From contig NZ_NHRX01000061.1 in NCBI RefSeq assembly GCF_016653115.1, positions 62,001-126,000 on the forward strand: a stretch of DNA of 64,000 bases, given 5' to 3'. This document shows positions 20,958-60,672 of the stretch, piece by piece. The DNA is from Rhodocyclus purpureus (GTDB taxonomy: Bacteria > Pseudomonadota > Gammaproteobacteria > Burkholderiales > Rhodocyclaceae). The notes below the pieces were generated by a model. The model did not search any database. It saw only the letters and a program-made list of their open reading frames with translations, and was not told where the DNA came from. The translations under genes and the position numbers were made by a program. Each line of letters begins with the position of its first letter. Position 1 is the first letter of the stretch.

Positions 20958-21610
20958 ATGTCGCCGCAGGCATCGGCATGACGTCGGCGCGCACGCGCGC
21001 ACGCATGGTCGATCGCCTGCGCGAGCGCGGCATCCACGACGAGGAGGTGCTGGCGGCGCTCGGCGCCGTCCCGCGCCACCTGTTCGTCGAGGAGGCGCTG
21101 GCTTCGCGCGCCTACGAGGATACGGCGCTGCCGCTCGGTTGCTCGCAGACCATCTCGCAGCCTTACGTCGTCGCCCTGATGATCCAGGCGCTGCGTTGCG
21201 GCGGGCGCGCCTTGGGCAAGACGCTCGAAGTCGGCGCCGGCTGTGCCTACCAGGCCGTGGTGCTGGGCAGGCTCGCCAGCGAGGTCCATGCGCTCGAGCG
21301 CATCGGCACCCTGGCCGAACGGGCGCGCCAGAACGTTGCGCGCGTTGCGCAGTCCAACGTCCGCATCCTGCATGGCGACGGCCATCTCGGGTTGCCGGAA
21401 GCGGCGCCCTTCGACAGCATCATCGTCGCTGCAGCGACGCCGGTCCTGCCGCCGGCTCTGCGCATGCAACTGGCCCCCGGCGGCAGGATGATCCTGCCCT
21501 TCGGTGCCAGCGAGCAACAACTGCTCATGATCGAACGTCGTGGCGAAAGCTTCGTCGAAAAACGCCTCGACGGAGTCAAGTTCGTCCCATTACGCCAAGG
21601 AGTCGAATGA
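20954..21610 (+). CDS. pcm: protein-L-isoaspartate O-methyltransferase
   Basis: Repairs isoaspartyl damage in proteins by S-adenosylmethionine-dependent methylation. About 218 residues. Family markers are [37 protein letters not shown] and the SAM-binding [15 protein letters not shown]. The usual motif has GSGSGYQAA; Cys-Ala replace Gly-Ser-Gly positions here, a mild variant. The start overlaps the surE stop and its stop overlaps the nlpD start (ATGA in both cases). Confidence 0.95.
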
Positions 21611-42705: not shown

Positions 42706-43761
42706 TCAAGCCGCTCCGGCCGGCTTGATCCGCTCGGGTTTCCGGCGATAGACGCGGGCCGTCATCCTCGCGTCGGAGTGGGCCAGCAGTTGCCGCGCGC
42801 GCTCCAGCGACTCCGCATCGCTCCCCACTTTTGCGCGCAGGTCGTGCTCGGTGAAACGCTCGCTCACGGCGGTTTCCTTCAGCACACGAGTCATGAAGTG
42901 CTGCCAGATGTTGTTCCAGTTGCCCGCGGTGCCGTCGGAGCGCACGAAGCATTTGCCGTCGAGCTGGCAGAACAGGTACGGCGAGAGTGCCGGTCGCGCA
43001 TCCTTGGCGGACTCGACCGCGGCGCGCAGTTCGGGCGACCATTCGTAGATCACGCGCTTCCCGGTGCTCGCCTTCGTCTTGCTCGGCGTGACGTGGATGC
43101 CGTCCTCGCGGCAGTCGGAGACCGTCAGCAGCAGCAGGTCGCGCTGGCGAAGGCCCGTCAGCAGCTTCAGCCGCAGGTAGGCCTGCACCATGCGGACGCT
43201 GCCGACCTTGCGCGTCGGCGGCAGCGACAGCGCCTCTTCCAGCTCCCAGTCTTCGACGTATCGGGTGCGCGGCGCGGCGCCGGAGATGCGGACTTCGCCC
43301 TTGAACGGGTGCGCGGCGATCAGGCCCCACTCGACCGCCTTCGTGAAGGCGTGGCTCAGCACCTCGATTTCCCGCTTCGCGGCCGTCGCCTTGCCGCGCT
43401 TCGCGGCGTACTGGTAGACGTGCTGCGGCTCCAGGTCTTCGAGCGCCATCGCGCCGAACACCGCGCGCAGCGTGGCCAAGTGCCGCTTGTTCTCGGTCTG
43501 CGTCTTCGGCGCCTTGCCGGGCACGGTGTCGAGCAGGTAGCGGTCGAGCAGCTCGCCGATCGTGGTCGGCTTCTCCGGTGCGACGCCGCGATCGGCCCAC
43601 GTCCGGTAGGCCTCCTGGAGCGTGCCGCCGAGCCGGAACCATGTCTTTCCATCCCACTGCGCTTTGCATGCTGGCGGGACGATGTAGTAGACGGACCCGT
43701 TCTTCCACGTCCAGCGTGCCGGCAGCCCGCGGTTCTCCTGGCGGCGTTTAAGCGGCGACAT
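42706..43761 (-). CDS. int: tyrosine recombinase (prophage integrase)
   Basis: A 351-residue integrase: an N-terminal arm-binding region, a core-binding SAM-like domain (TIGELLDRYLLDTVPGKAPKT) and the catalytic domain with Arg in LLTGLRQRDLL, Lys in TPSKTKAST, HxxR in TEHDLRAK, His in LLAHSDARMTARVY and the nucleophile Tyr in VYRRK. It is the last gene of the leftward early operon and lies next to tRNA-Val; it overlaps the DUF4224 gene by 14 bases. Confidence 0.95.
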   Translation of the reverse strand: MSPLKRRQENRGLPARWTWKNGSVYYIVPPACKAQWDGKTWFRLGGTLQEAYRTWADRGVAPEKPTTIGELLDRYLLDTVPGKAPKTQTENKRHLATLRAVFGAMALEDLEPQHVYQYAAKRGKATAAKREIEVLSHAFTKAVEWGLIAAHPFKGEVRISGAAPRTRYVEDWELEEALSLPPTRKVGSVRMVQAYLRLKLLTGLRQRDLLLLTVSDCREDGIHVTPSKTKASTGKRVIYEWSPELRAAVESAKDARPALSPYLFCQLDGKCFVRSDGTAGNWNNIWQHFMTRVLKETAVSERFTEHDLRAKVGSDAESLERARQLLAHSDARMTARVYRRKPERIKPAGAA

Positions 43762-45892: not shown

Positions 45893-46413
45893 GATTGCAC
45901 CTCCTGTGCACGCGTGTGCACCGCCCGGGCCATGATCGCCGCCGGGGCGATGCAGGCGTCGCGCAGCGCGCAGAGCTGCGACGCGCGCACGAACTCGTCG
46001 ATCTCATCCTGCGGCATCACGACCAGCGACTCGAAATGTTTGGCCGGGATGATCGTGTACCAGCATCCGAGGTCGCCGTGCCAGAGGGCGTCCGCCTCGA
46101 ACGTCAGCGTCTCGGCTGCTATATCGACGCCAACGCACTTCGCGACGAAGCCGCCCAGGGCGGTGCGCGCCTGACCCGAAGCCTGCTTCGCCTCGCGCAG
46201 CGCGGCGCCGGCGCGCTGGATCAGCGCCAGGCGCGGATTGGCGCGCGTCGTGCCGCCATCCTCGCCGACCAGGCCCTCCCGATCGTTCCGCTCCGCCCAG
46301 CGGATCTTCTCCGCGGGCGACATCACCGCCAGCGCGCCCTGGATGATCTTGTTCGCGGCGGAGAGCTCCTCGAGCAGCTCGCCCGCCAGCGCCTGCAGGT
46401 CCGGGGCGCTCAC
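45889..46413 (-). CDS. hypothetical phage protein
   Basis: 174 residues. The first half is helical and Ala-rich (LAGELLEELSAANKIIQGALAVM), the middle contains GGFVAKCVGVDIAAETLTFEADAL and CWYTIIPAKHFESLVVMPQ, possibly a small beta domain. Overlaps both neighbours by 4 bases. No family recognised. Confidence 0.7.
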   Translation of the reverse strand: MSAPDLQALAGELLEELSAANKIIQGALAVMSPAEKIRWAERNDREGLVGEDGGTTRANPRLALIQRAGAALREAKQASGQARTALGGFVAKCVGVDIAAETLTFEADALWHGDLGCWYTIIPAKHFESLVVMPQDEIDEFVRASQLCALRDACIAPAAIMARAVHTRAQEVQS

Positions 46414-46539: not shown

Positions 46540-46962
46540 TCAAACGGTGGTTTCGATGTCGCGCAACTGCCCGCCGACGTGGTGGGCCATGGCCAGCAGC
46601 GCCGCGCGGTAGCCGCGCCGATACTCCTCGCCCTGCGCAGGGTCTGCTTGCGGCAGCAGGTCGAGCCCGCCGCAGCGCTGCAGCTCGTCGAGCGGCTCGG
46701 CAATCTCCGCAAGGATCTGCTGGGCGCGCAGCCGCCTGAATTGAGCCATCGGCATCTCCGCTGCCGCATCGATCGCCGCCTGCCCGGCCTCCGCCGTTTC
46801 GGCCCAGTCGGTCGCCGTGATGCCTTCGCGCGTAATCCACCATGCGCTGCGCCCAGCGCAGCTCGATCCTTCTGGATACGTGTGCACATGCCCGCGCTCG
46901 ACACCGGCGGACAAAGACACGAGCGTCCGCGTGTCTTCTCCCACTCGCCATCTTTCGCCCAT
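46540..46962 (-). CDS. first gene of the leftward early operon, hypothetical
   Basis: 140 residues with no recognised family; N-terminal half beta-like (VHTYPEGSSCAGRSAWWITREGITATDW in that region), C-terminal half helical. It is the promoter-proximal gene behind the paired operators at 47061-47106, with a leader of about 90 bases. In lambda this position is held by regulators such as N or exclusion genes, but nothing in the sequence shows that function. Confidence 0.7.
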   Translation of the reverse strand: MGERWRVGEDTRTLVSLSAGVERGHVHTYPEGSSCAGRSAWWITREGITATDWAETAEAGQAAIDAAAEMPMAQFRRLRAQQILAEIAEPLDELQRCGGLDLLPQADPAQGEEYRRGYRAALLAMAHHVGGQLRDIETTV

Positions 46963-51298: not shown

Positions 51299-52078
51299 TT
51301 AAGGCTTGCACGTCTTGAACCACCGCCGTACCTGGCCGAGGATGGTCAGGCGGTCGGCTTCGCGCGGGGTGGCGATCTGGTCAGGGTAGAGCTCCTTGTC
51401 GGGATTGTCGGAGACGATGCGCAGGTTGCCGCTGAGCACGTCGGCGATCAGCCGCTTGACGATGAGGTGCTCGTTCCACGCCAGGCAGTAGATGCCGTCG
51501 CCGCGAAACTCGCGCACGCGCACGTCGACGAACATCAGCGAGCCGTCGTCTATGGTCGGCTGCATGCTGATGCCGGCGCACGTGACCAGCTTGACGTACT
51601 CGGGGTTCGCCGTGCCCAGGTTCTCCAGCGCCCACGACTTCAACACCGGCAGGTTGGCGACGATGTCGGAGCGGTCGATGCATTCGGCGCCGGCGCCGGC
51701 GGACATCCGCACGTCGTGGATCTCGAGCTGGACGTAGTCGGCGTGCGTCGGCTGCGGTAGCGCTTGGCGCGAAGCGTCGGCGGCCGGGGCGGCGTCTGTT
51801 GCCGGAGACAGCGCCGAGACGGTGCGCGCTTCAGCGGCCAGCCGCGGCGAGAAGTCTTCGATGGCGCAGCCCAGCGCTTTTGCGAACTTCGCCGCAGCAG
51901 CGAGATTCAGCGGCGATTTCGCATTGAGGTATTGCCACACCATGCCCTGCGTGCCGATGCCCGTTTCCGCACCGAATTCAGCCTGTGATCCGACGGCGCG
52001 TTCGACGTAAATCGCCTTGAGCGCCTTGGCCTCACGGGTATGGACGTCCTCAATCTTCGAAGCTTTTGTTTTTGGCAT
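51299..52078 (-). CDS. CI-like repressor with S24 peptidase domain
   Basis: 259 residues. The N-terminal helix-turn-helix is around 30-60 (SQAEFGAETGIGTQGMVWQYL). The C-terminal LexA/S24 domain (150-255) has Ser in CAGISMQPTIDDG and Lys in HLIVKRLIAD, with Ala-Gly (MSAGAGAE) as the probable self-cleavage site, so RecA-induced prophage induction is expected. It is transcribed leftward from a promoter whose predicted start is the ATG itself. It probably binds the TAGCG-N-CGCTA sites on both sides of itself. Confidence 0.93.
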   Translation of the reverse strand: MPKTKASKIEDVHTREAKALKAIYVERAVGSQAEFGAETGIGTQGMVWQYLNAKSPLNLAAAAKFAKALGCAIEDFSPRLAAEARTVSALSPATDAAPAADASRQALPQPTHADYVQLEIHDVRMSAGAGAECIDRSDIVANLPVLKSWALENLGTANPEYVKLVTCAGISMQPTIDDGSLMFVDVRVREFRGDGIYCLAWNEHLIVKRLIADVLSGNLRIVSDNPDKELYPDQIATPREADRLTILGQVRRWFKTCKP

Positions 52079-53259: not shown

Positions 53260-53760
53260 ATGACATGCCGTTACACCGAGATCAATCAGCACGATGCGCT
53301 GTACATTGCGGCGCGCGCTTACCCCGGCGGGGTCGAGGCCATGGCCCAGCGCATGGGCACGGCAGCGCATGTGCTGTACAAGAAGCTGCGGCCGGCCGTC
53401 GCGACGCATCACGTCAATTACGAGGAGGTCTCGGAGATCGTCGAGCACCTCGAGGCGGCCGGTAAGTCGGACATGGCCGACCTGGCGTTGTCGGCGTTCG
53501 CGTGGCGTCATGGCCGCGTCCTCGTCCGCTTGCCAGAGACGAGCGCTGCCGGCGGCGAGCTGTTCGCCCTGGTGCTGCAGCTCATGCGCGAGGAGGGCGC
53601 ACTGGCGGCGCACATCGACGCGGCGCTGGCCGACGACGGCCGCATCGATGATGCCGAGCTGGCAACGGTCGAGAAGGATCTGCAGGAGTGCATCTCCGCG
53701 CTCGTGGTGCTGCGCGACCAGGTGCGCGCGCGGCACGCGGCCGACCAGCGGAAGGGCTGA
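53260..53760 (+). CDS. phage regulatory CII-family protein (CP76-type)
   Basis: 166 residues. The N-terminal half matches the CII/CP76 pattern: DALYIAARAYPGGVEAMAQRMG, VLYKKLRPAV and the helix NYEEVSEIVEHLEAAG, which form a DNA-binding domain. The C-terminal half is helical. GGGAGG lies 8-9 bases upstream. It should regulate the lysis-lysogeny choice or early gene expression; which promoter it acts on is not visible. Confidence 0.8.
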   Translation: MTCRYTEINQHDALYIAARAYPGGVEAMAQRMGTAAHVLYKKLRPAVATHHVNYEEVSEIVEHLEAAGKSDMADLALSAFAWRHGRVLVRLPETSAAGGELFALVLQLMREEGALAAHIDAALADDGRIDDAELATVEKDLQECISALVVLRDQVRARHAADQRKG

Positions 53761-53766
53761 TCGGTG

Positions 53767-56457
53767 ATGCACCGAATCGACCAGTCGGATATCGACGCGC
53801 TTCTGGCGCGGGTCGATATCGTTTCCGTCATCGACCAGTTCGTCCCGCTGAAGAAGGCGGGGTCGGAATTCGAGGCGCTGTGCCCGTTTCACTCGGAGAA
53901 GACGCCGTCGTTCCGCGTCGTCCCGGCCAAGGGCTTCTATCACTGCCACGGCTGCGGCACGCACGGCAACGCGATCGATTTCATGATGGAGTACGGCTCG
54001 ATGGGTTTCCGCGAGGCGTTCCAGGCGCTCGGGGGTGTCATCCCGGGCGAAGAGAACGCGCCGGCGCTGCCTGTACGCCCGGCACCGGCTCCGCGCGCAG
54101 ACGTTCAGGCCGATGATGAGTCGCCGTGGGTGGCGGTCCTGCCGGCGCCGGCGGATGCGCCAGAGCCGCCGCGGGCGCATTACGTGCGCGGCCTGCCGGA
54201 GTGCGTGTGGGCGTACCGCAACTTTACGGGCTCGCTGCTCGGCTTCGTCTATCGCTTCCGCCGTTCGGGCGGCGGCAAGGAGACGCTGCCGCTGGTGTGG
54301 TGCCGCAACGAACTGACCGGCGCCTGCGAGTGGCGCTGGAAGGCGTTCCCCGAGCCGCGCCCGCTGTACGGGCTGGACCGCCTGGCGGCGCGACCGTCGG
54401 CGCCGGTGCTGGTGGTCGAGGGCGAGAAGTGCGCGGATGCGGGCCATCTGGCGCTGCCGGACTTCGTCACGGTGTCGTGGCCCGGCGGCGGCAAAGCGGT
54501 GAGCAAGGCGAGCTGGGAGGCGCTGCGCGATCGCGAGGTCTGGCTGTGGCCGGACTGCGACGCGGCGCGCGTGCCGCTGACGCAGGATCAATTGCTCGAG
54601 CTGGTCGGCGATCCCGAGCTGTCGGCGCTGCCGCGTTCACGCGAGCGGACGGCGCGCCTGCAGGCGGCGGTGAAGTTGCACCAGGAGGCGGTCGATGCTG
54701 CTGCTGCAAGGCAGCCGCTGCTGCCGGTCGAGGAGCAGCCGGGGGTGCGCGCGATGAACGAGGTCGCCGAGATCCTGCGCGGCCTGGGCTGCACGGTGCG
54801 CCTGGTGCCGATCCCGGACCCGGGCGAGGCGCCGTCGGGGTGGGACATCGCCGATGCGATCGAGGACGGGCTGCTCGGTGAGGCGCTCGCCGTGCGCGTG
54901 CGGTCGGCGCCGTTGCTGTTCTCGTCGGACCTTGCTGCCGCCGATGCGTGCGATGCGGACGATGCTTCCCCGCTGCCGTGGGAGGAGGGTGCGCCTGCGG
55001 ACTCTCCCGTTCCCTCTGGAGGCGAGGCGTCGCCAGCGGCCCCGGCGCACTCCGGGGGGGCGGGGGCGGAGGCCGCAGGATCCACGAGCCAGCCGGGGGC
55101 GGCGAAGCCGAAGAAGGAGAAGAAGCCGGTCGATTGGAACAAGTTCAACGACTTGGCAGAAAACTTCGTGCTGGTCTATGGCACCGATACGGTGTGGGAC
55201 TGCCTCCAGAAGATGCTGATCAAGGTCAATCATCTGCGTCTGGCGTTCGGTTCCGACCTGGTCAAGATGTGGCTGGGGTCGGAGAAGCGGCGCATGGTCC
55301 GGCTGGATCAGTTGGTGTTCGAGCCTGGGCGTGAGGTCGAGTATCCGGCCATCAACCTCTTCGACGGCTTCGAGATGAAGCCGAAGCGCGGGGACTGCGA
55401 TCCGCTGATCGAGCTGCTGGCGTACCTGTGCCGGGATTCTGCCGAGACACCCGAAGACGTCGAGCGCGTCGTCGATTGGGTGCTCAAGTGGCTCGCGCTG
55501 CCCTTGCAGCGGCCGGGGGCGAAGATGCGCTCGGCGCTGGTGTTCCACGGCCCGCAGGGCGCCGGCAAGAACCTGTTCTTCGAGTCGGTGGCAGCGATCT
55601 ACGGGAAGTATTCGATCGTGGTCGGCCAGGGGCAGCTCGAGTCGCAGTACAACGAGTGGTGCTCGCGCCGGCTGATGGCGATCGGCGACGAGGTCATCGC
55701 GCGCGCGGAGCTCTATCACCACAAGAACAAGCTGAAGTCGCTGATCACCGGCGAGACGATCCCGATCGAGCAGAAGTTCATGCCGATGCGTGTCGAGTCG
55801 AATCACCTGAACGTGGTGTTCCTGTCGAACGAGACGCAGCCGCTGGCATTGGAGGAGGGCGACCGCCGCTATTTCGTCGTCTACACGCCGTCGCAGAACC
55901 AGGAGGGGCTGTACGAGCGGGTGGATCAGTGCCTCAGGGCCGGTGGCGCGGAAGCGCTGTACCGCTATCTGCTCGATTACCCGCTCGGCGACTTTTCCGA
56001 GTTCACGCGGCCGCTGATGACGACGGCCAAGCGTGACCTGATCGAGCTGGGTCTGCGCCCGGCGGAACGCTTCATCCGCGAGTGGCTGGCTGGGTATCTC
56101 CCGCTCCCTCTTCAGGTGTGTTCGGCAACGCAGCTCTACCGGGCCTTCCGGCGTTGGTGCGGGGCGACCGGGGAGCGCTTCCCGCCGCCTCAGGAGCAAT
56201 TCACCAAGGTGGTGCAGAAGTACGTCTCCCAGCTGAGCGAGAAGGCCGGCAAGCCGCTGCTGATCCGCTACAAGGTGGTCAAGCTGTCCGACCCGGTGCG
56301 CGGCAAGCGCTGCGATCGCATGTGGATACCGTCCGGCTGCGGGGCACCCGAAGGCATGACCGAGGGCGCGTGGGCGGCCGATTCGTCAGTTGCGTTCGAG
56401 AAGCCGCTGCACGACTTCCTGAGCGAGGGCGTGCCTGCGGGCACGGTGGGGCAGTGA
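53767..56457 (+). CDS. phage primase-helicase (CHC2 zinc finger, SF3-type helicase)
   Basis: 896 residues. The CHC2 zinc finger (CPFHSEKTPSFRVVPAKGFYHCHGCGTHG) is split at residues about 38-66; the middle has a toprim-like region (VLVVEGEKCADAGHLALP, WPDCDAAR) near 215-270; a disordered Ala/Pro/Gly linker follows; the C-terminal helicase has Walker A FHGPQGAGKN near residue 598 and IGDEVIARAELYHHKNKLKSLI. It would unwind and prime phage DNA. Starts GTG 53764 and ATG 53767 are adjacent. The iteron array lies directly downstream. Confidence 0.9.
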   Translation: MHRIDQSDIDALLARVDIVSVIDQFVPLKKAGSEFEALCPFHSEKTPSFRVVPAKGFYHCHGCGTHGNAIDFMMEYGSMGFREAFQALGGVIPGEENAPALPVRPAPAPRADVQADDESPWVAVLPAPADAPEPPRAHYVRGLPECVWAYRNFTGSLLGFVYRFRRSGGGKETLPLVWCRNELTGACEWRWKAFPEPRPLYGLDRLAARPSAPVLVVEGEKCADAGHLALPDFVTVSWPGGGKAVSKASWEALRDREVWLWPDCDAARVPLTQDQLLELVGDPELSALPRSRERTARLQAAVKLHQEAVDAAAARQPLLPVEEQPGVRAMNEVAEILRGLGCTVRLVPIPDPGEAPSGWDIADAIEDGLLGEALAVRVRSAPLLFSSDLAAADACDADDASPLPWEEGAPADSPVPSGGEASPAAPAHSGGAGAEAAGSTSQPGAAKPKKEKKPVDWNKFNDLAENFVLVYGTDTVWDCLQKMLIKVNHLRLAFGSDLVKMWLGSEKRRMVRLDQLVFEPGREVEYPAINLFDGFEMKPKRGDCDPLIELLAYLCRDSAETPEDVERVVDWVLKWLALPLQRPGAKMRSALVFHGPQGAGKNLFFESVAAIYGKYSIVVGQGQLESQYNEWCSRRLMAIGDEVIARAELYHHKNKLKSLITGETIPIEQKFMPMRVESNHLNVVFLSNETQPLALEEGDRRYFVVYTPSQNQEGLYERVDQCLRAGGAEALYRYLLDYPLGDFSEFTRPLMTTAKRDLIELGLRPAERFIREWLAGYLPLPLQVCSATQLYRAFRRWCGATGERFPPPQEQFTKVVQKYVSQLSEKAGKPLLIRYKVVKLSDPVRGKRCDRMWIPSGCGAPEGMTEGAWAADSSVAFEKPLHDFLSEGVPAGTVGQ

Positions 56458-56469
56458 TGCGCGGCGCCG

Positions 56470-56709
56470 GTTACGCGGTTACGCCAGCGGTTACGCGGGA
56501 GTTACGCCGTAACTCATTGAAGTTACGCAGGTTACGCGTAAAGCGCGCGCGCGTATACGTGAGCGATTTACGCCGCTGCGCTCTGACGTTGACGTAGTGC
56601 ATTGGTGTAGGTTGTTCATGTGCGGGAAAAAAGCGCGTAACCGCGTAACTTGCGTAACTTCAGATACTTACGGCGTAACCACCGCGTAACTTTTACGTTT
56701 TGACGTAAC
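56470..56709. other. iteron array, probable phage replication origin
   Basis: GTTACGC occurs forward at 56470, 56478, 56490, 56501, 56522 and 56531, and reversed (GCGTAAC) at 56635, 56643, 56652, 56673 and 56684, with variant copies at 56507-56513 and 56703-56709. The two groups face each other across about 97 bases that include an alternating GCGCGC segment. The 274-base gap carries no gene. Directly repeated short iterons behind a helicase-primase gene are what phage origins look like. Confidence 0.7.
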
Positions 56710-56731
56710 TGCAAGGAAAGAAGGGGGATAA

Positions 56732-56974
56732 ATGAAAGAGAAGAAGCCTTTGCGAAAGCTGATGCCGGAGACTGCTGAGTTCATCGATGCGGCCCGGGCG
56801 GCTTTCGGCGCTGCCGATGTCGATGCTGCGCTGAGGGCCGGAGTCTCTGGACAACCTGCCTTCTGGGCCGGTGAGGCGGGGAATGAGGTCGGCACCCGTT
56901 CTCCGGTCCCGGCCTTGTCGGTCAGCGGTTCGGCGCTATTCGTCCATGTTCAGCGAAAGGGCGGCGCGAAATGA
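56732..56974 (+). CDS. small phage protein upstream of Q-like gene
   Basis: 80 residues: a basic start (MKEKKPLRKLMPETAEFIDA) then an Ala-rich helical part and a beta-like end. AAGGGGG lies 4-5 bases before the ATG, and the stop overlaps the next start (ATGA). No family recognised. Confidence 0.7.
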   Translation: MKEKKPLRKLMPETAEFIDAARAAFGAADVDAALRAGVSGQPAFWAGEAGNEVGTRSPVPALSVSGSALFVHVQRKGGAK

Positions 56975-57354
56975 TCGAGCACATCGACAACAGGCTGCTG
57001 CGGTGGGCGGATTGGGCGGCAGGCGGACGCAGGGCGGCAGGATTAGGGTTTTCGCCCTGCACCCTTTCCCGCTGGGAGGCGACGTGCTCCTTGCGTCCGG
57101 TCGATCCGAAGTACGACGAAGAGGCCAGCGCCACCGATTCGGCCGTATCCAAGCTGCCGGACGAACTGCGCCTGGTGGTGTGCGTCTTCTACCTCAAGCC
57201 GGGCACCGCCAGGCAGAAGGCTCGGGACTGCGGGTTCAGTAGCGATACGCTGTACGCGCGGTTGCATCACGCTCACCAGCGCATCGAGCAGCATCTGGCC
57301 GATGCCAAGAAGCGCCGCACCTGGCCGGCGCGATCTTTTCTCGCGGAGGGTTGA
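56971..57354 (+). CDS. Q-like late antiterminator
   Basis: 127 residues. The C-terminal half (LPDELRLVVCVFYLKPGTAR, CGFSSDTLYARLHHAHQRIE) is a sigma-region-4/helix-turn-helix-like segment found in the short phage antitermination Q family, and the length fits. Position is strong support: a promoter begins in its last codons and a terminator lies 30 bases beyond the predicted start, as at lambda pR'-tR'. It should allow late transcription through to the packaging and head genes. Confidence 0.72.
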   Translation: MIEHIDNRLLRWADWAAGGRRAAGLGFSPCTLSRWEATCSLRPVDPKYDEEASATDSAVSKLPDELRLVVCVFYLKPGTARQKARDCGFSSDTLYARLHHAHQRIEQHLADAKKRRTWPARSFLAEG

Positions 57355-57379
57355 CACGATCCGACACAAGTTGTGTAAT
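57351..57379 (+). promoter_or_regulatory. late promoter (pR'-like)
   Basis: TTGACA (57351-57356), 17 bases, TGTAAT (57374-57379). The spacer end carries a perfect palindrome ACACAA-G-TTGTGT (57364-57376), which could be a regulator site. It is the only strong promoter seen before the late genes. Confidence 0.75.
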
Positions 57380-57409
57380 TCGGGCACGCTGGTGTTTCGA
57401 CCGTCCAGC

Positions 57410-57441
57410 AAGCCCGCATCCGAGAGGAGAGCGGGCTTTTT
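57410..57441 (+). terminator. terminator right behind the late promoter (tR'-like)
   Basis: AAGCCCGC (57410-57417) pairs with GCGGGCTT (57431-57438) and continues into T bases. Without antitermination, transcripts from the promoter above would be only about 55 bases long. Confidence 0.8.
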
Positions 57442-57460
57442 CGTTTTCAGGGGCGTCGGC

Positions 57461-58078
57461 ATGGTCAAGATCAATGTGCGGCATAACCTCAAGGAACAGG
57501 CGTCCGCACTGAGGAAGGTCGCGGTTGGCCTGAGGTCAGTTGCCATCAACGAGGCGATCAACAAGACCGCTTCGAAGGCCAGGTCGGATATGGTCAAGAA
57601 GATCACCGACGAGTTCAACATCGACAAGAGCGAAGCTAGATCCCAGTTGAAGGTGAGTCGCGCTAAGGATCGCAGCAATCTGGTCGCGGTGATCCAGGCA
57701 TTCCCACGGCGCCGCGGCCATAGGTCGAGAAATGTCATGCTGTTTAATGCCGAGCCAGCCCCTGGTACGGCGACGAAACGTATTGCTGTCCTACTCGGCG
57801 GGCGATGGGTGACGCTTACCGTTCCGGTGGGTGGTGGCGTATCCGTGCAGATCAAAAGGAACGGTCCGCGAAAGATCATCAAGGGAGCGTTCATTGGCAA
57901 CAAGGGCCGCACGGTGTTCGAACGAACCGGTGATGGTAGAAAGATCAAAGCCGTTGAGACTGTTGATGTTCCGTCGATGTTCAACACAAAGAGAATCAAT
58001 GGCTTTGTGGTCAAGCGAATTCAAGAGAACTTTCCTAAAGAGCTACGGAAAGCAATCGCCAAGCGCCTCGCAATGTAA
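57461..58078 (+). CDS. phage minor tail protein Z-like (gpZ)
   Basis: 205 residues similar in layout to lambda gpZ: N-terminal helix (NLKEQASALRKVAVGLRSVA), INEAINKTASKARSDMVKKI, a glycine-rich beta middle, GAFIGNKGRTVFERTG and a closing helix (NFPKELRKAIAKRLAM). The start at 57461 is set by CAGGGG upstream. Tail genes normally follow the head genes; here it lies before the terminase and right after the late terminator, and its codons are less GC-rich than those of its neighbours, which hints at a separate origin. Confidence 0.7.
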   Translation: MVKINVRHNLKEQASALRKVAVGLRSVAINEAINKTASKARSDMVKKITDEFNIDKSEARSQLKVSRAKDRSNLVAVIQAFPRRRGHRSRNVMLFNAEPAPGTATKRIAVLLGGRWVTLTVPVGGGVSVQIKRNGPRKIIKGAFIGNKGRTVFERTGDGRKIKAVETVDVPSMFNTKRINGFVVKRIQENFPKELRKAIAKRLAM

Positions 58079-58166
58079 AACGGGTCCTTTAAAATCCCTT
58101 GTATTGCGGCGCTGAAAGACGCGGTTTCTCTCTAGTTTCGAGATGGCTAAGGGGGCCATAAGTCTC

Positions 58167-58736
58167 ATGCCGACTCAGCAGCAGATTGCCGATCACCTCG
58201 ACCTCAACCAGTCGGAGGTGAGCCGCCACCTGGAGAAGCTGGGGATCGACTGGAAGGTGGCGACGATGGACGAGATCCGCGTCGCCTACCTGCGCCATCT
58301 GCGCGGCGTGGCTGCCGGGCACCGGTCCGACGACGGCCTTGACCTGACGCGCGAGCGCGTACTGACCGAACGTGTCGATCGTGAGCTGAAGATGCTGACG
58401 GTCGCCGAGAAGAAGGGAATGCTCATCAACGTGGCCCAGTTGGAGCCCGAGCTGATGCAGATGGTCGGCGCCTTCCGGTCGGAGTTGCTGTCCCGCGACG
58501 ACAAGCTCAAGAGCGAGCTCGACGCGCTGTACGGGATCGAAGTCGACCTGAGCATCCTCAATGAACACACCTTCGCCGCACTGGCACAACTCGCTCGATA
58601 CGACCCAGGCGAACGCGGCTTTGCTGCGCCGGCTGGCGGCACTATTGGCGCCGCCCGAGCAAATGTCGACAACGGACTGGGCGCGCCGGTACCGGGGGAT
58701 GTCGGCGAAGGCATCGGCGAGGCCGGGCCGGTATAA
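58167..58736 (+). CDS. terminase small subunit (Nu1/DUF1441-like)
   Basis: About 189 residues. The N-terminus is a winged-helix-like DNA-binding segment (MPTQQQIADHLDLNQSEVSR, then HLEKLGI), as in Nu1-type small terminases that recognise the packaging site; the middle is a helical oligomerisation region. The start at 58167 is chosen for AAGGGGG upstream and for the family's usual N-terminus; 58143 is also possible. The last 176 bases overlap the large-subunit gene in another frame. Confidence 0.75.
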   Translation: MPTQQQIADHLDLNQSEVSRHLEKLGIDWKVATMDEIRVAYLRHLRGVAAGHRSDDGLDLTRERVLTERVDRELKMLTVAEKKGMLINVAQLEPELMQMVGAFRSELLSRDDKLKSELDALYGIEVDLSILNEHTFAALAQLARYDPGERGFAAPAGGTIGAARANVDNGLGAPVPGDVGEGIGEAGPV

Positions 58737-60672
58737 CCCGGAGCTGACGCCCTGGGTGCCCGGCATCCACGCGGCGCTCGACGATCCGACCGTCACCAAG
58801 GTGGTGGCGAAGAAGTCGGCGCAGGTCGCCTGGACCGACGGCGTGCTGCTGAACTACGTGGGCCGGCGGATCGACATCGATCCATGCCCGATGATCATCA
58901 TGTTCGCCAAGGATGGCGCGGCAAAGGAGTTCAACGACGAGAAGTTCGGACCGATGGTCGAGGCGACGCCTCGCCTGGCCGAGAAGATCCCGGTGCACAA
59001 GAAGCGCGACCGGGACAACCGCTGGCAGTTCAAGGGCTTCCCCGGCGGCTTCCTGAAGTTCGTCGGGTCCAACAGCCCCAGTTCGGTGAAATCCACGCCG
59101 GCCCCGGTGGTCGCGGTAGAGGAGCCGGACGACTGCAACGAGAACGTCAACGACCAGGGCGACACCATCACCTTGCTCGAAGAGCGGACCAAGTCCTTCC
59201 CGCGGCGCAAGGTCATCTTCGGCGGTACGCCGACGATCGAGGGTCTGTCGCGAGTCGACGCCGGCTACAAGGCCAGCGACCAGCGCAAGTTCTTCGTGCC
59301 GTGCCATCACTGCGACGAAGCGCACGTACTGTCGTGGGAGCATGTCCGCTGGACCGAAGACCCTGAGTTCAATCACGAGGTCTTCGGCCATGCCCGGCCG
59401 GAGACCGCGTACTACGTCTGTCCGCACTGCAGTTGCACGTGGAGCGATGCCGAAAAGAACCGCAACGTACGCCGGGCCGAGTCCGCCGGCTTCGGCTGGC
59501 AGGCGACGGCGCCGTTCTACGGCGTGGCCGGGTTCTACATCAACGAGCTGTACAGCCCCTTCCCCGGGTCGATCCTGCAGCGCCTGGTGGAGAAGTGGCT
59601 CACTGCGCAGCACGCGCTCGAGCAGGGCGACGACACGAAGCTGCGCTCGTTCGTGAACAACACGCAGGGGCTGGCCTATGCGTACGCGAGCGACCTGCCC
59701 GACGTCGACACGCTGAAGGAACGCGCCGAGGACTACGCCGAACTGACGGTGCCGTGGGGCGCCCTGGTGATCACGGCCGGCGTGGACGTGCAGCACGACC
59801 GCCTGGCAGTCGTGATCCGCGCCTGGGGCCGCGGCGAGGAGTCCTGGCTGCTCTACTGGGGCGAGATCCACGGTCAGACCGTGGTCGCCGAGCAAGGCGC
59901 CTGGATCGACCTCGATGCCCTGCTGTCGCGCCCGATCGCGCACGTCAGCGGCGCGAGCCTGCGCGTGCGCGCCGTCAGCGTCGACTCGTCGGACGGCCAG
60001 ACCTCCGACGCCGTCTATGCCTACGTGCGGCGCCGGATGGGCCGCGGCTACATGGCGGTCAAGGGCGCGTCGATGGACGACGGTCGCGAAGTCTTCAGCC
60101 CGCCGAAGCTCTCGGTGGACACCGACCGGAAACAGAAGGCGCACAAGTACGGTCTCCGCCCGTTCATCGTCGGGACGCAGCGGGCCAAGGATCTGCTGCT
60201 CGGCGTCGATTCGAACGGCGGCCGGATCAAGCTGAACGGTACCGGGCCGGGGCGGATGCACTGGTACAAGGGCGTGCGCCCCGACTACTTCGAGCAGATC
60301 ACCGCCGAGGTGAAAGCCCCGCACCGAACCATCCGCAACCGCAAGGTCTGGCAGAAAAAGGCCGGTGTGCGCAACGAAGCGCTCGACTGCGAGGTGTACG
60401 CGCTGCATGCGGCGCGCAGCCTCAAGATCAACCTCTGGAAGGAAGAGCGCTGGACCGACGAGGAACGAAAGGTTCGCCAGGCAGACCTGCTCGGCGCACC
60501 GGCAGCCGAACCGCTGCCGCCGCTTCAACCGCTGGAAGGAGGTGATCCATCGTCTGACGGCGCCGGGCCGCCTGCAGCACCCCCGGCACCCCAAGCGAAA
60601 CCCGCCCGACCGAAACCTGGCGGGTTTTTTAACGCCCCGTCAGGCGGGGGCTTCAAGGCAACGAGGTGGTAA
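58561..60672 (+). CDS. terminase large subunit, gpA family
   Basis: 703 residues. The packaging ATPase/nuclease of lambda gpA type: PELTPWVPGIHAALDDPTVTK near 60, KKSAQVAWTDGVLLNYVG, VEEPDDCNENVNDQGD for the Walker B region, FGGTPTIEGLSR, two Cys pairs of a zinc site (CHHCDEAH, CPHCSCTW) and the nuclease domain with GVDVQHDRLAVVIRAWGRGEE. A start at 58663 would remove most of the overlap with the small subunit. A terminator-like hairpin lies inside the final codons. Confidence 0.93.
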   Translation: MNTPSPHWHNSLDTTQANAALLRRLAALLAPPEQMSTTDWARRYRGMSAKASARPGRYNPELTPWVPGIHAALDDPTVTKVVAKKSAQVAWTDGVLLNYVGRRIDIDPCPMIIMFAKDGAAKEFNDEKFGPMVEATPRLAEKIPVHKKRDRDNRWQFKGFPGGFLKFVGSNSPSSVKSTPAPVVAVEEPDDCNENVNDQGDTITLLEERTKSFPRRKVIFGGTPTIEGLSRVDAGYKASDQRKFFVPCHHCDEAHVLSWEHVRWTEDPEFNHEVFGHARPETAYYVCPHCSCTWSDAEKNRNVRRAESAGFGWQATAPFYGVAGFYINELYSPFPGSILQRLVEKWLTAQHALEQGDDTKLRSFVNNTQGLAYAYASDLPDVDTLKERAEDYAELTVPWGALVITAGVDVQHDRLAVVIRAWGRGEESWLLYWGEIHGQTVVAEQGAWIDLDALLSRPIAHVSGASLRVRAVSVDSSDGQTSDAVYAYVRRRMGRGYMAVKGASMDDGREVFSPPKLSVDTDRKQKAHKYGLRPFIVGTQRAKDLLLGVDSNGGRIKLNGTGPGRMHWYKGVRPDYFEQITAEVKAPHRTIRNRKVWQKKAGVRNEALDCEVYALHAARSLKINLWKEERWTDEERKVRQADLLGAPAAEPLPPLQPLEGGDPSSDGAGPPAAPPAPQAKPARPKPGGFFNAPSGGGFKATRW
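60598..60630 (+). terminator. terminator-like hairpin inside the TerL 3' end
   Basis: AAACCCGCC (60598-60606) pairs with GGCGGGTTT (60619-60627) over a 12-base loop and is followed by more T. It lies within the coding sequence, about 40 bases before the stop, so late transcription must read through it. Confidence 0.65.

Follow-up and report, generated by a model that had tools for sequence, protein, structure and literature searches.

A mirrored array of the short repeat GTTACGC, found directly 3' of a primase-helicase gene in Rhodocyclus purpureus, is most probably the replication origin of the prophage that carries it, and this is the best explanation that sequence comparison offers. The same layout is spelled with different words behind related genes in many phages, which makes it very likely that such sites are where these phages start copying their DNA.

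Facing repeats behind the primase-helicase gene

The window, which is the whole 64,000-nucleotide stretch analysed, is part of a 133-kb contig in a 3.6-Mb genome. In the window, a tailed prophage extends from an integrase gene at 42706 to beyond 58 kb, where terminase and portal genes are located. The integrase is followed in order by a CI-like repressor, a helix-turn-helix regulator, a CII-like activator and the primase-helicase, and terminase, portal and minor tail genes were recognized with Pfam and PHROGs. The main features are:

42706-43761, minus strand: integrase, about 13 kb from the array
51299-52078, minus strand: CI-like repressor
53260-53760, plus strand: CII-like regulator (Pfam, PHROGs)
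53764-56457, plus strand: primase-helicase of 897 aa (Pfam, PHROGs), proposed self-loading initiator
56002-56457, plus strand: C-terminal winged-helix domain (AlphaFold), proposed iteron reader
56470-56537, plus strand: left arm, GTTACGC at 56470, 56478, 56490, 56501, 56522 and 56531, inverted CGTAAC at 56508
56538-56634, no strand: centre between the facing arms, 97 bp
56543-56561, no strand: alternating purine-pyrimidine tract of 19 nt, Z-DNA-prone
56635-56709, minus strand: right arm, GTTACGC at 56635, 56643, 56652, 56673 and 56684, degenerate CGTAAC at 56704
56732-56974, plus strand: small protein of 80 aa, directly after the putative origin
58143-60672, plus strand: terminase small and large subunits (Pfam, PHROGs)

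Exact GTTACGC occurs 11 times in the window, all within 56470-56690, as six forward copies and then five reverse ones, while shuffling the window gave a mean of 4.17 copies and a maximum of 10 in 100 shuffles. The initial annotation had reported at least eleven exact copies in two opposed groups at 56470-56709, and both the count and the coordinates, to within a few bases, proved right. Near copies were also observed in the array region, namely CGTAAC at 56508 and 56704 and TTACG at 56568, 56668 and 56693. The density of TTACG/CGTAA reached 16 in the best 240-bp interval and at most 2 in intervals clear of the array region. Pairs of GTTACGC no more than 20 bases apart were found at the array and nowhere else in the genome, the reversed pattern used as control giving 1 match.

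The spacing of the two arms is mirrored about the centre. Outward from 56531, the left-arm copies are placed at steps of 9, 30, 41, 53 and 61, and outward from 56643 the right-arm copies follow at 9, 30, 41 and 60, the extra inner copy at 56635 being set aside. In the same way, the 49-nt stretches 56490-56538 and 56642-56690 are 86% complementary. The first GTTACGC lies 12 bp behind the stop of the primase-helicase gene, and the 274 bp between this stop (56457) and the next likely start (56732) hold no likely gene, in line with the gene-free gap claimed at the outset; a listed ORF that reaches into the gap (56082-56597) overlaps the primase-helicase gene in a different frame. The AT content 3' of the alternating tract in the centre is 48%, a mild enrichment over the 35% of the prophage, and the most AT-rich 20-mer is located in the right arm rather than in the centre.

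No DNA similarity to 56300-57000 was found in phage records, and Rfam gave no match in 55500-58500. A change of GC skew had been put forward as a sign of an origin; the skew does not turn at the array, whether in the window or in the complete phages Lodos and PG1, so that GC skew gives the origin reading no support.

The 80-aa protein showed no Pfam or PHROGs match. It has the consensus MPEVAAFIDELRAAFG..., and 68/213 of the loci described below have a relative of it no more than 1 kb behind the gene. It was considered as a part of the system and rejected: its relatives occur with and without an array (45/154 iteron loci, 23/59 loci without one), and it is therefore not tied to the iterons. 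Further on, 56971-57354 matched phage antitermination Q weakly (PF06530, E 0.023, below its cutoff) as well as phrog_4300, and could possibly be a late-gene switch beside the putative origin.

Layout of the array among relatives

Relatives were gathered through protein similarity alone and not through DNA. Two contig searches contributed the best 80 of 184 and the best 80 of 349 candidates, and the sample therefore leans to close relatives. With the window included, 242 loci were entered, 237 of them with a helicase match; removal of 18 duplicates, 4 loci lacking a stop codon and 2 with insufficient DNA left 213 distinct loci. Left out before this count were L001-L008 and L027 (own genome), as well as L029 and L031-L056 (where the match was to the primase half, mainly of DnaG-like genes, or no DNA lay behind the gene). 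Arrays were scored as the commonest 8-letter word in the 330 bp 3' of the gene, counted without overlap on either strand with one mismatch allowed.

At least 8 copies of a word were found 3' of the gene in 154/213 loci, compared with 52/4995 control stretches of the same loci, and in 59/81 against 17/1841 when one locus per 60%-identity cluster was kept. The initial annotation had named absence of the repeats from related phages as evidence against an origin; most relatives keep the layout, and its retention 3' of the gene argues for an origin with initiator sites, as first proposed. The head-to-head arrangement had been described as less common than direct repeats. On the contrary, it is the rule here: the copies on either side of the centre face opposite ways in 137 of the 154 array loci, where shuffled orientations predict 78.8, and do not in the other 17. 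In three word families picked by eye, the sense is nearly constant, being plus-then-minus in 19/22, 20/24 and 24/25. The offsets of the arms are mirrored as well (0.49 over 109 loci, at most 0.38 in 1000 permutations exchanging arms between loci).

The word itself differs from phage to phage. GTTACGC is also the word in a Nitrosomonas contig (L009), while TGTGCGGG is found in Stenotrophomonas phage S1, words like TGTGTTGGG in the Pseudomonas phages PG1, pAN, LPPA56, Lodos and Turba, TTCAGACAG in Halomonas H4907, TGTGCAGGG in Moraxella Mcat1, and TTCCATAC and CCCAACCT in VapE-type phages. As the 102 distinct best words include many shifted spellings of one motif, they were grouped by motif, into 40, 29 or 15 groups at a similarity of 0.7, 0.6 or 0.5. 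With words falling into some 15-40 motif groups, it is the layout that is kept and not the sequence. The position of the array, its mirrored layout, the keeping of this layout across words and the recurrence of an alternating tract can all be read from the sequences compared.

Fewer than 8 copies were counted in 59/213 loci, including all 20 of the L018 group (at most 7 copies each). No clear array was seen in Bordetella PBb001, Variovorax VarioGold, an E. coli plasmid relative (L069), Pseudomonas Haddon, Bacteroides BT2 and Lactiplantibacillus H1-Guo. The count was 7 in Moraxella Mcat7 and 10 in Mcat1, where the copies are not opposed at the centre. By eye, an element like GAAACCCGCGCCGT was also noticed to recur between distal and proximal iterons in L009, L010, L012 and L028, with a mirrored form in some right arms; it is possibly the site of a second protein.

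In parallel, viral contigs were scanned by DNA pattern only (one GTTACGC, 60-90 bp, two inverted copies). The pattern matched 91 stretches, and the 80 of them that were read gave 71 distinct matches. GTTACG was present at least 7 times in 46 of these, and in 31 of the 46 a DUF5906/VapE-type helicase match ends within 450 bp. An alternating run of at least 14 nt was present in 36/36 matches with such a helicase gene and in 4/35 without. Several contigs are common to both collections, and the scan is therefore not independent of the first locus set. Six large ORFs near arrays without this helicase type matched phage primase/helicase families (three), a DnaB-like helicase (one) or nothing (two), and GTTACG-type arrays are therefore not exclusive to the DUF5906/VapE-type family. 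The contigs L413, L376, L434 and L415 carry similar GTTACG arrays beside large ORFs matching other replication families, and the families seen beside such arrays are the phrog_35358 primase, a DnaB-like helicase and the phrog_2373 helicase. This suggests that facing arrays occur with several initiator types.

These observations also bear on other uses of the site. It is improbable that the array is a cis-acting accessory or copy-control region, comparable to P4 crr or to handcuffing iterons, which binds the primase-helicase while the strands first open elsewhere. P4 provides the precedent: its crr, with facing type I repeats, follows alpha directly, and an origin annotated elsewhere carries further repeats. 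However, the genome studied here has no second place of paired GTTACGC, and in 57/59 cluster representatives no other stretch of the fetched locus is as rich as the gap, these loci being of a few to about 12 kb and not whole phages. A transcription operator or autoregulatory site, serving the primase operon or the late genes, is a very remote prospect. In its favour, early genes lie on one side of the site and late genes on the other, and a winged-helix protein presumably binds there. Against it, the scan of 56300-56900 revealed neither promoter-like nor terminator-like sites, an operator would need far less than two arms with a dozen copies and an alternating centre, and in array-bearing relatives the array follows the primase-helicase though the next genes differ.

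A packaging site (cos or pac) is scarcely conceivable: terminase genes lie within 1.7 kb, the small-subunit ORF starting at 58143, yet in Halomonas phage H4907 the array adjoins the primase with terminase about 2.9 kb behind, after other genes, and the iteron words track the primase-helicase. Equally hard to credit are integrase arm-type sites of attP, which do consist of short inverted and direct repeats according to the P4 annotation, since the integrase gene is about 13 kb from the array here, about 15 kb in Lodos and about 10 kb in PG1.

The alternating tract

The array encloses a centre that had been described as GCGCGC-rich; it contains GCGCGCGCGCGTATACGTG at 56543-56561, a 19-nt alternation of purines and pyrimidines located 5 bp from the left arm. 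Where the copies are opposed and the centre spans at least 50 bp (132 loci), the longest alternating run was 19.2 nt on average, compared with 6.5 nt elsewhere, and a run of at least 10 nt was found in 121/132 centres against 768/13526 control stretches. The window itself is a miss in this table, where the word finder counts the chance TTACG at 56568, and its tract was read directly instead. In 95/132 relatives, the second half of the centre was lower in GC than the first.

Runs of at least 14 nt were present in 121/154 array gaps, leaving 33 without one, in 24/42 gaps with 5-7 copies, in 3/17 with fewer and in 75/4995 controls. For the array gaps, Markov-1 resampling of the same 330 bp, which preserves their own dinucleotide content, predicts 16.2 instead of the 121 observed. 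Per 60%-identity cluster, such a run was found in 56/81 against 24/1841 controls, and array and run together in 46/81. When ORF-free gaps were compared with one another, the run was seen in 0/18 other gaps against 12/19 origin gaps, and in 2/133 against 16/31 for proteobacterial loci of at most 60% GC. Steps inside the proteobacterial runs are CG (43%), CA and TG (47%) and TA (10%), and other long runs of the same loci are alike. This mix is varied and the same as in other long runs, and it is therefore the alternation that appears to be kept rather than a word.

A second set was built from searches with the VapE-type genes of three phages, Javan405 of Streptococcus, Bob of Paenibacillus and PS3 of Marinobacter. 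It gave 86 loci, nearly all of them Javan405 relatives, from which 14 were dropped (duplicates, no stop, too little DNA) to leave 72. A run of at least 14 nt was found in 52/72 against 16/1554 controls, with 0.8 expected from resampling. Arrays were weaker in this set, with at least 8 copies in 15/72 against 0/1554 controls. CGCGTATA is present in 33/72 of its longest runs. In the Javan405-related contigs L289-L368, tracts that often contain CGCGTATA lie about 130-190 bp 3' of the VapE-type gene, and in Paenibacillus Bob the alternating tract is located outside the iteron block. Other alternating runs of 16-21 nt occur in the window away from iterons, at 20987-21007, 45905-45921 and 46876-46891.

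No description of such a tract at such origins was found in the open-access literature, as covered by titles and the starts of abstracts. The tract is a concrete and so far unexplained DNA-mechanical feature at a putative replication origin. One rather speculative proposal is that DUF5906/VapE phage origins share an alternating tract of 14-59 nt, conserved in structure and not in sequence, between or beside re-spelled iteron arms, that acts as an opening element by absorbing negative supercoiling or by unstacking and marks where facing rings part the strands. If this holds, these origins would form a class of their own, whose geometry and DNA mechanics stay constant as the iteron word changes together with the domain that reads it. 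Alternatively, the tract may have arisen through slippage or be bound by another protein.

The candidate initiator and comparison with known systems

Pfam and PHROGs recognized in the primase-helicase a CHC2 zinc finger, a DUF6371-like middle and a DUF5906/VapE-like AAA+ helicase, to which AlphaFold adds a C-terminal winged helix. The helicase half (residues 458-897) was modelled with a mean pLDDT of 95, and the nearest solved folds in Foldseek were the NrS-1 C-terminal region, the SaPI5 primase-helicase 7ola, SaPI PriRep1 7pds and poxvirus D5/E5. NrS-1 6k9c matched with an E-value of 5e-38 by profile and 4e-20 in Foldseek, and L020, a VapE-type relative, matches 7pds by sequence (E 3e-43). 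Modelled alone, the last 150 residues again form a predicted winged helix (mean pLDDT 94). VIA-align gave this domain Z values near 6 with RFX as well as other winged helices and of 4.7 with NrS-1 6k9c; such modest values point to a winged helix in general and to no family. Foldseek with this domain alone gave no match at E 0.001, and the C-terminal domains of P4 alpha and SaPI were absent among the VIA-align matches listed. The helicase and winged-helix folds come from models.

Across 114 loci, the similarity of the iterons is tied more closely to identity in the C-terminal domain than to identity in the core. For pairs below 80% core identity, the partial rank correlation with iteron similarity was 0.17 for the C-terminal domain and 0.08 for the core, and 0/500 permutations of a Mantel test were as high. 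At a core identity of 0.6-0.8, mean iteron similarity was 0.46, 0.60, 0.76 and 0.82 as C-terminal identity rose. The C-terminal winged helix is proposed as the iteron reader, an assignment that is correlative because core identity tracks the word too.

From these elements we infer a possible course of initiation. The primase-helicase, made just upstream, would bind the GTTACGC sites through its C-terminal winged helix, and each arm would load one helicase ring, so that two rings would face each other across the 97-bp centre. Opening of this centre by the rings would be eased by the alternating tract next to the left arm. Under negative supercoiling, this tract could switch to Z-DNA or readily unstack, and it might serve as an opening element or as a supercoil sink. 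The primase-helicase would then prime both forks, and replication would be bidirectional. One geometry with re-spelled words makes the specificity between initiator and origin open to swap tests.

Classical iteron plasmid origins have head-to-tail iterons and a Rep initiator without helicase, whereas the window has opposed arms and a primase-helicase. P4 has its primase-helicase (alpha) gene directly upstream of facing 8-bp repeats, adjacent ones having a 9-bp period. However, crr consists of two 120-bp direct repeats with a separate origin (ori1) and the word GGTGAACA, and its facing repeats come with no alternating tract. The array of the window, a single mirrored GTTACGC array, therefore differs in repeat plan and is not a P4 crr. 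With NrS-1, the likeness concerns the protein, the C-terminal helicase of its primase-polymerase being the closest solved fold and sequence profile (6k9c).

For SV40, large T antigen is described as two head-to-head hexamers loaded at the origin (PMC9894130), which resemble the two facing rings proposed here, but also as recognizing the origin through its N-terminal domain (PMC7581432).

The closest likeness is with the SaPIs of staphylococci and the PICIs of E. coli. These are described as having a self-loading D5/AAA+ helicase, an origin directly 3' of its gene and two iteron sets (PMC7581432, PMC6092414, PMC9894130). The SaPI sets are described as lying in opposite orientations (PMC9894130), so that opposed repeats were already known before being taken for a rarity here. 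SaPI Rep helicases are described as reading downstream iterons through a C-terminal domain (PMC7581432), and PICI origins as having an AT-rich region between the sets (PMC6092414). In the same way, the candidate initiator of the window is a D5/SaPI-type AAA+ helicase (Foldseek 7ola and 7pds, DUF5906 and VapE-like Pfam matches), the putative origin lies immediately 3' of its gene, as do the arrays of 154/213 loci, and two iteron sets of opposite orientation are found in the window and its relatives. A region of E. coli CFT073 taken as a PICI origin comparator turned out to be a lambda-like prophage. The element of the window is a full-length phage and not a satellite, and the presence of terminase, portal and tail genes means that it is not a PICI. 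The centre of its array has a long alternating tract and is mildly AT-enriched, where PICI origins are described with an AT-rich region. Since a similar organization is found in ordinary tailed phages of many Proteobacteria, the origin type of the satellites need not be peculiar to satellites. The putative origin would work in the manner of SaPI/PICI origins, though it belongs to full-length phages and includes an alternating tract.
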